Source: a virus
Strand: one strand, 5' to 3'
DNA length: 25,309 bases
IMG/VR virus record: IMGVR_UViG_3300034072_000439
Span: 1-25,309 of that record
Of this stretch, positions 16,377-22,543 are shown piece by piece. The translations under genes were made by a program, and so were the position numbers. A model generated the notes under the pieces. The model had not been told where the DNA came from, made no database searches, and saw only the letters and a list, made by a program, of their open reading frames with translations. Each line of letters starts with the position of its first letter. Position 1 is the first letter of the stretch.

Positions 16377-17123
16377 ATGTCCAATGTATCGGAAGTGTGG
16401 AAGCCAGTGGTAGGTCACGAGACAACTCACGAAGTGTCGAATCTTGGGCGCGTCAAGGCGTTGCCGTACGAGATGCGCCATTGGTGCGGGAAGATGCTTC
16501 CGCAGCCTGAGCGGATTCTCAAGGACTCCAGCCACCCCGGAGGCTACCGCACGATTTGTTTTCGCGGTCGCGGGCGGGAGTACGTCCACCGCGTAGTCAT
16601 GGCGGCATTCGTCGGTCCTGGCAAGGGCATGGACGTGAACCACATCGACGGCGACAAGACAAACAACGCACTGTCGAACCTTGAGTATTGCGATCGCCTG
16701 CACAACGTCAGGCACGCCATCAGAACAGGGCTGCAAAACAACGCAGGCGAAAACAATGGATGCTGCAAATACACGGACGATCAGGTCCGGCATGCGATCA
16801 GCTTGGTTGTCGCCGGCGATTCTGTTGCCACTGCTTCCGCACGTTTAGGCGTCAGCGAAGGCATGATTCAGCAAGTGCTTGGCGGGGTGCGGAGACAGTA
16901 TCTCGGGTTGGCAAACAAGGGATTGCTTGCTGCTCGCAGTCAGGGGCGAGGCCAGCGGCACCCCCGGGCGTCGTTCACAGAGCAGCAAGTCCGCGACATC
17001 CGATCATCTGACGAGAGGACATACATCCTCGCGGTTCGATATGGCGTAAGCCAGCAATGCATCGCGGGCATTCGGTCCGGTCGCACGTGGAAGCACCTTT
17101 TGCAGCAGGAGGCCGTGGCATGA
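16377..17123 (+). CDS. HNH homing endonuclease with NUMOD4 and HTH repeats
   Basis: 248 residues; ATG 16377 has a perfect AGGAGG six bases upstream. NUMOD4 motif at 7-28 (VWKPVVGHETTHEVSNLGRV), HNH core at 70-114 with VHRVVMAAFVG, NHIDGDKTNN and NLEYCDRLHN, then two HTH-type DNA-binding segments: 132-177 (YTDDQVRHAISLVVAGDS, ASARLGVSEGMIQQVL) and 200-240. This is the usual free-standing phage homing endonuclease of this class, which cuts a phage or host site to spread itself. It separates the cysteine peptidase from the serine protease, has its own strong ribosome site, and is preceded by a hairpin. Confidence 0.9.
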   Translation: MSNVSEVWKPVVGHETTHEVSNLGRVKALPYEMRHWCGKMLPQPERILKDSSHPGGYRTICFRGRGREYVHRVVMAAFVGPGKGMDVNHIDGDKTNNALSNLEYCDRLHNVRHAIRTGLQNNAGENNGCCKYTDDQVRHAISLVVAGDSVATASARLGVSEGMIQQVLGGVRRQYLGLANKGLLAARSQGRGQRHPRASFTEQQVRDIRSSDERTYILAVRYGVSQQCIAGIRSGRTWKHLLQQEAVA

Positions 17124-18079
17124 AACTCAAAGAGTTCCTCGCCGACTGCGTGCTGCTGCTCGGCATGGTCATTGCGACGTTGACCATAGCCTGCTGGCTC
17201 GCCGGCTACTGTGACGCCGCCGAAATGTGCCCGAACGGCTGCGACAACGGATTGGTCGGGAAAACAGCGGTGAAGTACGTGTGCCCCGTTTGCTCGGGTG
17301 TAGGGAAAATTGACCATTTTTCCTACCATGCTGATCCCCTTGTGGGCTTTCAAGACCGGGCAAGCGATGCTTCGGCATCGCCCCCGGCAAACGCCCCTGG
17401 CACAAATCCGGCAAAAACGCCAGAACACGGCAACGCTACTGCTGCTAGTCAGGATAAAACGCAGGACCACCGCAAGGCAGTCGTGCGGATTGTCGTTGCC
17501 GATGGCCCGTCCGTGAGCCGTGGCAGCGGCGTTGCCATCGGCGGCAACCGAGTGCTGACGGCGTGGCACGTCGTCCGCACCAATAGCTCTGCGAATATAC
17601 CCACGGTGTATTTTCAGGACGGCACTCAAAGCAAAGCCAAGGTCATCAAGACCGATGACGCTTTCGACCTGGCGTTGCTCGAGTGCGAAACGGTAGCGTC
17701 GGTGGCCGCAAAATTGGCTGGTAGCGAACCGGCTGGCACGCTCACCGTCACCGGATACGGGCCGCACCCCAGCACGTTCCGCGAATCCCGTGGCCGGATC
17801 GTTGGCCGGGCGAGACCAACCCGCGAGCATCAGATGGATCACATTGTGATTTCCACGGGTGCTAGGCAAGGCGACAGCGGCGGTCCGGTGTTCAACGAAG
17901 CTGGCGAAGTGGCTGGCATCCTGTGGGGCAGCCGGGACGGTCAGACCTACGCAACGCACGCCGGGCGGATTCAGGCTTGGCTGGCCACGCCGGAGGCTGA
18001 GTTCGTGGCGTGCGATAAAGATCGCAGCAAATCGACAAATGTGCAGGGGAATTGTCCCAACGGGCAATGCCGCAAATGA
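17120..18079 (+). CDS. Membrane-anchored trypsin-like serine protease with N-terminal Cys-rich motif
   Basis: 319 residues from ATG 17120 (ATGA overlap with the HNH gene). Residues 9-29 (DCVLLLGMVIATLTIACWLA) form a membrane anchor or signal. A DnaJ-like pair of Cys motifs follows (CPNGCDNG at 37-44 and CPVCSG at 55-60), then a Pro/Ala linker. The catalytic triad is complete: His150 in TAWHVV, Asp183 in FDLALLE, Ser253 in QGDSGGPVFN. The C-terminus has a third Cys pair, CPNGQC. It would act outside the cytoplasmic membrane. The target is unknown; lysis, virion processing or defence are possible. Confidence 0.8.
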   Translation: MKLKEFLADCVLLLGMVIATLTIACWLAGYCDAAEMCPNGCDNGLVGKTAVKYVCPVCSGVGKIDHFSYHADPLVGFQDRASDASASPPANAPGTNPAKTPEHGNATAASQDKTQDHRKAVVRIVVADGPSVSRGSGVAIGGNRVLTAWHVVRTNSSANIPTVYFQDGTQSKAKVIKTDDAFDLALLECETVASVAAKLAGSEPAGTLTVTGYGPHPSTFRESRGRIVGRARPTREHQMDHIVISTGARQGDSGGPVFNEAGEVAGILWGSRDGQTYATHAGRIQAWLATPEAEFVACDKDRSKSTNVQGNCPNGQCRK

Positions 18080-20376: not shown

Positions 20377-20588
20377 GGACGCTATTTCCACCAGTCACGG
20401 CAGCCGACCTAGCCGAGATGGAGCGGCGAGCCAGGCGGCTAGGTGCTGCAAACTGCTGGACCGGCAGCGGTGGGTCTGTGGCAGCGGATGTGGTGCGACT
20501 CATTGACGCCTACCGGCGGCAGTGCGAGGCGTTGGCGGTGGCACGCGGGCATTGCGGGGATAAGTCGCTGCTAAGCGGTGCTAAGTGA
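20373..20588 (+). CDS. Small hypothetical protein
   Basis: 71 residues from ATG 20373 (ATGA overlap with the PEP-CTERM gene). Basic helix ADLAEMERRARRLGA, then GGSVAADVVRLIDAYRRQCE. Last gene of the plus-strand block before the convergent minus-strand genes. Its final codons run into a short repeat (TGCTAAG). Function unknown. Confidence 0.55.
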   Translation: MRTLFPPVTAADLAEMERRARRLGAANCWTGSGGSVAADVVRLIDAYRRQCEALAVARGHCGDKSLLSGAK

Positions 20589-20642
20589 CGGGCTGAACCG
20601 GGTGCTAAGTCGCAGCGGGCGGGCAACCGGGACTAATAGCTA
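20561..20642. repeat. Short direct repeats (TGCTAAG x3, TAAGTCGC x2) in the convergent gap
   Basis: TGCTAAG occurs at 20569, 20579 and 20603; TAAGTCGC at 20561 and 20606. They span the end of the last plus-strand gene and the intergenic gap. No intrinsic terminator with a T-tract is seen although two gene blocks converge here. They may be the degraded part of the attC-like site whose end box is at 20643. Confidence 0.4.
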
Positions 20643-20650
20643 GTTCTCCG
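20643..20650 (-). repeat. Lone attC-type end box (GTTCTCCG)
   Basis: The same 8-base box that ends the palindrome at 21004-21096 appears here two bases beyond the stop of the minus-strand gene, in the orientation expected of the 5' box of a following attC-like site. The rest of such a site is not recognisable. One chance match also exists at 9564 inside a tail gene, so the 8-mer alone is weak; position is what argues for it. Confidence 0.35.
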
Positions 20651-20652
20651 AC

Positions 20653-21051
20653 CTAAATATCCAGAGGCCACGGTTGGACCTGTTCCTTCACGAGCCGCTT
20701 GTCCTCTGCCCTCAACTCTCGGTATAGCCTGGTCGCCAAAGACTTCCACTCCGGGGCGTCGATTGTCTCGCTCCCAGCGGTGCCGTCTCGCAATGCCCTG
20801 GCCGTGTCCCGCACGATCATGTAGAGCGTGTTTCGCTCAAAGTTCGCCCTGTGCTTCCAGAGCCAGTCCATACAGGCGTGCGCCATGTAAGTCTGCCGCC
20901 CGAGGCAGTAGTTGTGGGCAGCCATCACCATGAGTTGTGTGTCCAGTTCGTCCCACGGGAGAATTGAATCCTTCCGTTTTGGCGAAGCCGCAACAGAACC
21001 AGACGGAGAACAAGGCCTTGCAGCCGACTTGCGATCACGTTTCTTTTTCAT
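20653..21051 (-). CDS. Hypothetical protein, candidate cassette-borne gene
   Basis: 132 residues reading from 21051 down. AAAGGA with a 7-base gap favours this ATG over one seven codons upstream. The basic start (KKKRDRKSAARPCSPSG) is encoded inside the palindromic repeat, so the natural protein may begin later. The body, with WDELDTQLMVMAAHNYCLGR, AHACMDWLWKHRANFERN and TLYMIVRDTARALRDG, is well-formed and helical. I do not recognise the family. The gene is directly followed by a repeat end box, as expected for a cassette. Confidence 0.65.
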   Translation of the reverse strand: MKKKRDRKSAARPCSPSGSVAASPKRKDSILPWDELDTQLMVMAAHNYCLGRQTYMAHACMDWLWKHRANFERNTLYMIVRDTARALRDGTAGSETIDAPEWKSLATRLYRELRAEDKRLVKEQVQPWPLDI

Positions 21052-21096
21052 AGCAGTATCCTTTGGTCGCAAGCGGCTGAAGGCAGCCGTTCTCCG
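21004..21096 (-). repeat. Integron attC-like imperfect palindrome
   Basis: CGGAGAAC at 21004-21011 pairs exactly with GTTCTCCG at 21089-21096 (R boxes). Inside, GCCTT (21016-21020 region) and AGCCG pair with CGGCT and AAGGC on the right arm (L boxes), and TTGCGATCA pairs with TGGTCGCAA with one mismatch. Spacers between boxes differ in length (3 against 4; 2 against 1; 2 against 1), leaving unpaired extrahelical bases on one side as in attC sites. The loop is about 25 bases and holds the ribosome site and ATG of the minus-strand gene. On the minus strand it follows the DUF551-like gene by 36 bases, the usual gene-attC order. Confidence 0.6.
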
Positions 21097-21107
21097 ACGG
21101 GGGGATG

Positions 21108-21129
21108 ATCCCGAAATCTGTTTCGGGAT
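21108..21129. other. Perfect 9-bp hairpin between cassette genes
   Basis: ATCCCGAAA (21108-21116) and TTTCGGGAT (21121-21129) are exact reverse complements around a 4-base loop. It lies three bases after the stop of the DUF551-like gene (minus strand). No T-tract follows on the minus strand (CATCCCCCC instead), so it could be a weak terminator, an mRNA-stabilising hairpin or a protein-binding dyad. Confidence 0.55.
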
Positions 21130-21132
21130 GAT

Positions 21133-21372
21133 TCACGAAACACCTTGTTTTCTAGTGCTTTTCCATCGCGTCTTCTTTGGCGGTTTCGGCATCGGCATCC
21201 AGTGTGTAGCGACGTTCGTGCGTCCCCGTGAAAACAAGTTGAGCGTCATTTGGTCGCTCGTGTCCCGTATGGCGATGTCTACCAGCCAGCCATGCGAGTC
21301 ATTCCACCAGCCAGCAATTACAACTTGCTTTGCCGCTGGCGGCCTTTTGCTCAGGGGAATCCACTCATTCAT
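21133..21372 (-). CDS. DUF551-like small phage protein
   Basis: 79 residues. It opens MNEWIPLSKRPPAAKQVVIA and ends around THWMPMPKPPKKTRW; the 'EWIPxxxRxP' start and 'THWMPxPxPP' end are the signature of DUF551, a small domain found mainly in phages and prophages, of unknown function. Its start overlaps the stop of the upstream minus-strand gene by 8 bases, so the pair forms an operon. It lies in a lower-GC stretch than the neighbouring integrase. Confidence 0.75.
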   Translation of the reverse strand: MNEWIPLSKRPPAAKQVVIAGWWNDSHGWLVDIAIRDTSDQMTLNLFSRGRTNVATHWMPMPKPPKKTRWKSTRKQGVS

Positions 21373-21598
21373 GTTTTCCGACTCCCCATGATTCGTCCAG
21401 GTTCTTCCACATCACCCCCAACGCCAAATCCGAAAGCTTCTGCATCTTCCACTCAAAGACGGCCATCTCTCGCCAGAAGCCCAGCGGATCGGGAACGCCT
21501 TGGAGTCGCCTGCGGGTAAGCTCAACGCCGCAAATGTTTTCCGTCACGAACTCAGACGGAGAACAAAGCCTTGCAGCAGAATCGCGGTCGGTGTTCAT
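21365..21598 (-). CDS. Hypothetical protein whose N-terminus is encoded in the repeat
   Basis: 77 residues from 21598 down. The first residues NTDRDSAARLCSPSEF parallel KKRDRKSAARPCSPSG of the other minus-strand gene because both are encoded by copies of the same repeat. An internal GTG right after the repeat (giving TENICGVELTRRR) is an alternative start. The body, with LGFWREMAVFEWKMQKLSDL and GVMWKNLDESW, is helical and of unknown function. Coupled to the DUF551-like gene by an 8-base overlap. Confidence 0.5.
   Translation of the reverse strand: MNTDRDSAARLCSPSEFVTENICGVELTRRRLQGVPDPLGFWREMAVFEWKMQKLSDLALGVMWKNLDESWGVGKHE
21554..21580 (-). repeat. Second, partial copy of the attC-like repeat
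   Basis: 27 bases match 21001-21027 with only two differences, covering the CGGAGAAC box and the GCCTTGCAGC inner box. The matching other arm is absent: the sequence between 21600 and the integrase stop (21635) bears no resemblance. It therefore looks like half a site, cut off where the integrase segment begins. Confidence 0.65.
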
Positions 21599-21634: not shown

Positions 21635-22543
21635 TCAAGCAACGCCGGACACTTCGCCGGAATCGTCATCCGGCGGTGGTTGCCATATCTGCGGCAGCCG
21701 CTGCCAGTCAGCCGGACGGCTGGCGTGCGTGATTCGCGGGTCCAAATACTTCCGGGTCACGGACTCGGAAGAATGCCCCAGTCCTTCCCGTGCATCGCCA
21801 CCAGCGGCTTCCAGGTGCGAAGCGTAGGACTTCCGCAAAGCGTGGAACTGCACGTCTCGCCCATCGCCAAGCCCGGCACGCTTCGTGATGCGGTGCCACC
21901 GCTTCCGTAATGCCGTGTCGCTCGCCGGCCACCACAAGAGAAAAGGCCCGTCATGCCGGCTGGCAGCGTCCACCAGGTCAGCGACCTCGTCGGGCAGTTG
22001 GTACAGCATCGCCTTCCTGCCACCCTTCCGGCACGCCGCTGGCACGTCTAGCCAAGGTCGCCGCCAGCAACCAGGCGGCACCCGCAGGATCGCCGTGATG
22101 CGTTCGCCGGTGCAGAACAGCGTGGCACACAACGCCCGGAACCACGTTGCAGCAGGCACTGGGCCAACCCAGCCCTTTGCTTCACCGCAGCTACGGTAGA
22201 GCGACGTCAACTCGTCTGCCGTAAACGCCCGTGGCATCCGTTCGGGGATCAACTCAGGCATGACGCACGGTCGCTGCCGCAGCAGGCCACGAGCTTGGGC
22301 AAGGTTCCATATCGCCAACAGTCCGCTGCGTTCCCGTGCCACGGACAGCGGCGACAGCGTGGTGCCACGGTGGGCAAGGAACTGGCTGACGGTGAGATCG
22401 TCGAAGTCCTCGAGGACGGCAGGCCGGCCTAGCCATCGGCTGAATTGCCGCACGGCGTGTTCAAGCAGCCGCACCGATTCAGGCGAGCGGCCACGTAGCC
22501 GAAGGGGGACGTAGGTGGTCCGCAGAAAGTCAGAGAGAGTCAT
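21635..22543 (-). CDS. int: Tyrosine recombinase / phage integrase
   Basis: 302 residues. The N-terminal SAM-like domain covers about 1-90. Catalytic residues can be placed: Arg148 in TGERITAIL, Lys near 173-177 in CRKGGRKAM, His234 and Arg237 in FHALRKSYASHL, His257 in GLGHSSESVT and the nucleophile Tyr266 in RKYLDP. It lacks the extra helix between the second and third patches that marks integron integrases (IntI), so it is a phage/ICE-type integrase. It would integrate the phage; the attachment site is not identified. It faces away from an excisionase-like gene across 265 bases. Confidence 0.9.
   Translation of the reverse strand: MTLSDFLRTTYVPLRLRGRSPESVRLLEHAVRQFSRWLGRPAVLEDFDDLTVSQFLAHRGTTLSPLSVARERSGLLAIWNLAQARGLLRQRPCVMPELIPERMPRAFTADELTSLYRSCGEAKGWVGPVPAATWFRALCATLFCTGERITAILRVPPGCWRRPWLDVPAACRKGGRKAMLYQLPDEVADLVDAASRHDGPFLLWWPASDTALRKRWHRITKRAGLGDGRDVQFHALRKSYASHLEAAGGDAREGLGHSSESVTRKYLDPRITHASRPADWQRLPQIWQPPPDDDSGEVSGVA

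Follow-up and report, generated by a model that had tools for sequence, protein, structure and literature searches.

Integrons have been regarded as bacterial devices, and their occurrences in phages as captured fragments. Two kinds of described system come closest to the array reported here. The first are the phage CALINs of Qi et al. 2023 (PMC9892861), published with functional attC sites and DNA methyltransferase cassettes; other phage attC sites were recombined by IntI1 in vivo, and attI sites were reported in a Shewanella prophage (PMC9892861), hence an attI in a phage is not new by itself. Our array resembles these CALINs in having attC sites without IntI and cassettes for DNA methyltransferases. 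By the published description it differs from them in its conserved attI-like site, its reversed genes and the SD and ATG in its attC loops, and also in its planctomycete type of attC and a single cassette pool common to many related phages. The CALIN of phage TJE1 was not located by a simple RYYYAAC/GTTRRRY search. The earlier note on this DNA held that a phage CALIN was little described; such CALINs have been in print since 2023 (PMC9892861), and it is for phage cassettes with reversed genes and attC start codons, and for planctomycete phage arrays, that no description was found in the open-licence literature. The second kind are the sedentary chromosomal integrons of Planctomycetota (L050, L051 and L052), which have the same attC core, the same R-box types and the same 8-nt match between the two ends of a cassette, as well as an attI homologous to one of the two phage types described below (b2). 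They differ in encoding IntI, in the canonical direction of their genes (18 of 19 scorable) and in their loops, none of which, at 45 sites, holds SD and ATG.

The window, ie the whole stretch of DNA analysed, comprises 25,309 nucleotides of an IMG/VR virus record and contains genes for a tail tape-measure protein and for an integrase of the phage type. It would be a fragment of a tailed phage, the host of which is probably a planctomycete-type bacterium, to judge from attC similarity alone. A gene for a trypsin-like serine protease lies at 17057-18079, in the phage structural region. We consider it highly probable that the window carries an integron platform without an integrase, in which cassettes are exchanged at G|TT through the IntI of the host, translation starts in the attC loops and the reversed genes are read as an operon. 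The features concerned are listed below.

20553-20643, plus strand: attI-like site, type b1; direct repeats GGGGATAAGTC, GCTGCTAAGCG, GGTGCTAAGTG and GGTGCTAAGTC, then CCGGGACTAATAGCTAG
20643-20650, plus strand: junction R box GTTCTCCG, with 8-nt pairing to the start box of the same cassette
20644-21089, plus strand: complete cassette 1, 446 bp; gene C and its attC, from G|TT to G|TT
20653-21051, minus strand: gene C, 132 aa; weak match to PHROG 11947 (unknown function); ATG at 21051 and AAAGGA in the attC loop
21004-21096, plus strand (the canonical top strand): full attC; R'' 21004-21011, R' 21089-21096; 85.2 bits with covariance model R1
21107-21130, minus strand: terminator-like hairpin UCCCGAAA..UUUCGGGA (RNA fold), between gene B and the attC
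21133-21372, minus strand: gene B, 79 aa; DUF551 (PF04448)
21365-21598, minus strand: gene A, 77 aa; first codons formed by the truncated attC arm (MNTDRDSAARLCSPS)
21557-21589, plus strand: truncated attC, reduced to its R'' and L'' half, at the distal array end and fused to the integrase flank; the partial copy as a whole, 21553-21589, matches at 86% over 37 nt
21635-22543, minus strand: phage-type tyrosine integrase, not IntI; 302 aa; PF00589; PHROG integrase

No relatives of the gene C protein were found by protein search, and none of the window stretch by blastn.

The element at 21004-21096 had been put forward as an attC-like hairpin, and both its architecture and its single-strand fold were borne out. 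Folded as DNA, each strand forms a single imperfect hairpin, with free energies of -25.5 and -24.9 kcal/mol (z scores -5.7 and -5.4; none of 200 shuffles did as well). The outer boxes, CGGAGAAC/GTTCTCCG, and the inner pairs, GCCTT and CAGCCG, provide the inverted R''/R' and L''/L' boxes of an attC, together with a central spacer and a variable loop. In the canonical attC top strand the extra bases sit in the 5' arm, and the plus-strand 5' arm here likewise holds the extrahelical single bases, 21020 (G) and 21027 (A). Their spacing on the bottom strand, T-N6-C, falls within the range that IntI enzymes excise efficiently (PMC3053210). The R' box, GTTCTCC, does not fit the consensus GTTRRRY, and another planctomycete repeat had been suggested on account of the odd outer boxes. 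That suggestion is abandoned, as planctomycete arrays with IntI normally have boxes of the GTTC type too, for instance GTTCTCCC. The R' boxes of sister phages are GTTAGGC/GTTAGCC, with the GTT itself invariant across sites; the strict consensus fails across this lineage, not just at the window site. Because the same core forms rows beside IntI in planctomycete genomes, we read 21004-21096 as a bona fide integron attC. The box CGGAGAAC occurs seven times in the window against 1.1 expected, four of the seven being the boxes described here. A partial copy previously placed at 21554-21580 is real, though it extends over 21553-21589; it represents the front half of an attC that was cut short on the side of the integrase. 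The same distal arrangement is present in G001 and G009 and, more diverged, in G006.

The attC core was found in nine viral contigs, at about 21 sites between small cassette genes, which upholds the claim of a phage with attC sites and cassettes. A first gapped viral pattern, requiring GAAC/GTTC boxes, gave only two contigs; a looser pattern of the core DNA gave seven (G005-G011). The phage sites are often in rows, with four full sites within 2.1 kb in G006. Over 85,000 bacterial and archaeal genomes the core pattern matched mainly attC-like sites, and cores near that of the phages came from Planctomycetaceae, Pirellulales, Pirellula and Planctomyces records and from one Verrucomicrobiota-labelled bin. 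IntI above the NCBIfam cut-off was present in three of five planctomycete genomes tested, with arrays sharing the attC core. A covariance model of the sites detected 4 to 23 of them in four planctomycete genomes and one in the fifth, and in G013 and G015 the rows adjoin IntI. The search of planctomycete genomes for the element thus gave homologous arrays beside genuine IntI, the opposite of what would speak against an attC. The site in the Verrucomicrobiota-labelled bin (L029) is of the planctomycete type with nearly the same core, which reflects either mis-binning or transfer. Another attC type (GCCTTCAGCCG...GACCGAAGGGAAGTAGCGGAAAGTGGGTCGGCTGCAAGGCATTGTT) recurs nearly unchanged in L026, L028, L032, L033 and L037, from genomes labelled Alcanivorax, Hahella, Methylococcaceae and Alphaproteobacteria.

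The earlier note had read the array on the minus strand as genes, site, gene and end box. The genes are indeed on that strand, but attC polarity follows the plus strand. The array therefore begins with the attI-like site, at 20643, and its genes point backwards towards that site. Reading the array in gene direction would have required a model of recombinase-mediated exchange, which was dropped once the polarity had put the start at 20643. The box there does lie two nucleotides after the stop codon of gene C; rather than a free-standing end box, it is the place where the attI-like site joins the array. Similarly, the description as CALIN-like is right in that there is no IntI and there are at least two attC sites (one full and one truncated in the window, 2 to 6 in the relatives), but since an attI is present the array exceeds the definition of a CALIN.

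The b1 repeats are copies of GGTGMTAAGTG at fixed distances, and the crossover would lie between 20643 (G) and 20644 (TT), ie at CCGGGACTAATAGCTAG|TT. The spacings are kept in five phages (the window, G001, G007, G008 and G009), and among viral contigs the exact b1 core is confined to array-bearing phages. In G007 the array bordered by b1 sits between a gene reading as SSB and a helicase. The exact core was found in 0 of 392 planctomycete genomes and no homologue was detected among host attI sites, so the putative use of b1 by IntI is argued from its anatomy, namely G|TT at the proximal end, an L box and putative integrase-binding repeats. The attI1 of class 1 integrons has direct repeats DR1 and DR2. 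Like attI1, b1 has its direct repeats upstream of the L box and G|TT; unlike attI1, it has an unrelated sequence, more repeats and no adjacent intI.

The second border type, b2, occurs in G010 and G011. In the host locus L051 it aligns with a stretch that lies about 217 bp downstream of IntI, up to the same G|TT (score 47, best of shuffled 28), and is identified as an attI because of this homology. No exact b2-like pattern was found in the 392 planctomycete genomes, so the host match is that with L051 (G012, outside those genomes). Scanning viral contigs with b2 alone gave 12 contigs, 10 of them new, which were used for a blind test. In all ten contigs with enough upstream DNA (eight new ones, G010 and G011; chance match about 4% each) the box adjacent to b2 correctly predicted the other end of the cassette, and every predicted 8-nt start box upstream of b2 adjoins an attC arm.

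This relation between the two ends is general. In 18 of 19 phage cassettes, bounded by G|TT, the first 8 nt (GTT and five more) are the reverse complement of the last 8 nt, as expected of gene cassettes with complementary R boxes of their own. The match is exactly 8 nt in 17 cassettes and 10 nt in one; one G007 cassette matches over only 5 nt. The rule holds across box variants such as CTCCG, CTCGC, CTCTC, AGCTT, AGCCC, AGGCA and ATGCC (p<=1e-5 against shuffled pairings), the two boxes flanking one in-array phage site match over only 4.1 nt on average, and host cassettes obey it too, with a mean of 7.1 nt. A circular cassette that has a single folded attC and is opened at G|TT would show such pairing, which we take to be the signature of cassette recombination at that point.

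Methyltransferases recur as cassette genes, in L064 (10466-11275), in L076 (16488-17063, minus strand) and next to attI in L157 and L160; Pfam assigns N6_N4_Mtase and MT-A70, and two more were recognised by eye. Their N-terminus is often encoded by the attC arm. One phage cassette (L065, in G007) contains a tRNA-Glu(TTC) gene at 17076-17148 on the minus strand.

Related phages differ by whole cassettes. A close relative found through its integrase (L003, in G001; 94% protein identity) shares homologous DNA with the window as far as 20648 and again from 21559 onwards, and has a different single cassette, with one gene, in place of the 911 bp of the window. Insertion of a prophage into a host attC is not needed, because phage DNA lies on either side of the array, in the window as well as in L003. 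G006 and G009 have a 414-bp cassette in common at 100% DNA identity, sitting behind different half-sites, while their flanks and integrases differ; beside it G006 has one extra whole cassette. Part of another cassette is common to G005 and G008/G009 at 90%. These shared cassettes point to recent exchange, between metagenome contigs with neighbouring numbers; all the contigs are metagenome fragments, in which shared cassettes can mislead assembly. G008 (L068) has the same array as G009, with 100% identity over 2.5 kb. Array sequence is found at both ends of the G009 contig (L070 at the start, L072 at the end), which suggests that the genome, of about 40 kb, is circular or permuted.

Homologous recombination, or annealing of the RecT type, at the conserved arms could have produced some of the cassette polymorphism. 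If the differences between phages arose in this way, at arms of 25-28 nt, the array might be a relic CALIN, ie a dead piece of a host integron that the phage took up and that recombines no more. The lack of an integrase in cis, the truncated distal attC and a broken internal site in G008/G009 would fit a relic, as would an ORF in G006 that reads by eye like RecT and the distal half-site that the window and L003 both keep while the adjoining cassette differs. We nevertheless think a relic unlikely, because it would not retain exact G|TT boundaries, own-box pairing over 8 nt through many box variants, a conserved attI with repeats at fixed spacings, from which boundaries were predicted correctly 10 times out of 10, or phage-specific loops common to many phages.

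The integrase near the array had been described as not being IntI, and it is an ordinary phage-type tyrosine integrase; no IntI model in NCBIfam matched it (TIGR02249, 15 bits against a cut-off of 265). As no IntI above the cut-off was found in any of the phage contigs, none has a complete integron with IntI in cis. IntI-like matches (E <= 1e-60) are present in 53 of 294 planctomycete genomes, 50 of them above the cut-off, so the host enzyme is commonly available. With IntI encoded by none of the phage contigs, the host most likely supplies the recombinase, and mobilisation in trans, as originally proposed, is the best reading.

The other candidate enzyme is the neighbouring tyrosine recombinase of the P0003 family, acting as a non-IntI integron integrase. 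Its gene adjoins the array in the window, G001, G006, G009 and G010, and R, HxxR, GH and Y can be made out in the window copy, but we regard this role as very improbable. The IntI signature is absent, no tyrosine recombinase was detected in the examined parts of the array-bearing G005, G007, G008 and G011, only a C-terminal part with a stop is left in G006, and the relatives L004 and L005 have the integrase with no site after it. The G006 copy (L064, 7873-8298) is readable as the C-terminal half only, with a TGA inside, and is probably a decayed gene beside an intact array. No P0003 homologues above 33% identity were found in the 294 planctomycete genomes.

Host IntI would act on cassettes of an unusual layout. 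The genes are reversed in all seven scorable phage cassettes, compared with one of 19 host cassettes, and the longer ORF is reversed, ie directed towards attI, in 10 of 10 b2-adjacent cassettes. On the gene strand the attC loop holds SD and ATG at 18 of 21 phage sites, against none of the 45 host sites; ATG, with or without SD, is found at 20 of 21 and 15 of 45, respectively. The loop ATG opens the whole cassette gene in the case of gene C, of a 269-aa DNA methyltransferase in G006 and of methyltransferase-like proteins of 271 aa (L157) and 371 aa (L160). Other loop ATGs lead into short leaders, in more than one reading frame. That the hairpin is only an RNA element, a translational control at a start codon or a REP-type repeat with a coincidental likeness to attC, would account for SD and ATG in the loop and for a very stable RNA fold around the ribosome-binding site, but is scarcely credible given the same core without SD/ATG in IntI-associated host arrays, the G|TT boundaries and attI, and the lack of an Rfam match for the window hairpin. 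A host loop in L021 (CTATGAACAACACGCAAGAC) resembles the phage loops without the SD and may be their starting point. No phage-type loops were found in the scanned host genomes, so direct cassette traffic between host and phage was not seen.

In the arrangement we propose, one complete cassette would come after the attI-like site at 20553-20643 on the plus strand, and behind it a distal cassette, the attC of which was truncated at the phage integrase gene. Cassettes would be exchanged at G|TT between the folded bottom strand of an attC and either attI or another attC, most likely by IntI that the infected host provides in trans. As the genes lie backwards in their cassettes, the array would be read as an extension of the phage operon from the integrase side. 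The SD and ATG of a loop would then either give the cassette protein a short N-terminus encoded by attC or direct translation of a short leader ending near the next start. We incline, with some reserve, to the view that the platform evolved in the phages, with an attI class of its own, a private shared pool of reversed cassettes, translation starts in attC and a recombinase borrowed from the host.

The presence of a docking site and cassettes without the enzyme in many related phages suggests a modular region for gene swapping, parasitic on the host's integron integrase. Cassettes that are far from a promoter, or have no ribosome-binding site, are silent, which is a known problem. Translation-starting attC sites would solve it and, if this is true, captured genes would be translated at once. 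Several of the cassette genes, the DNA methyltransferases, are plausible anti-restriction genes, and the system allows a direct test of whether phages reshuffle their accessory genes on infecting an IntI-positive planctomycete.
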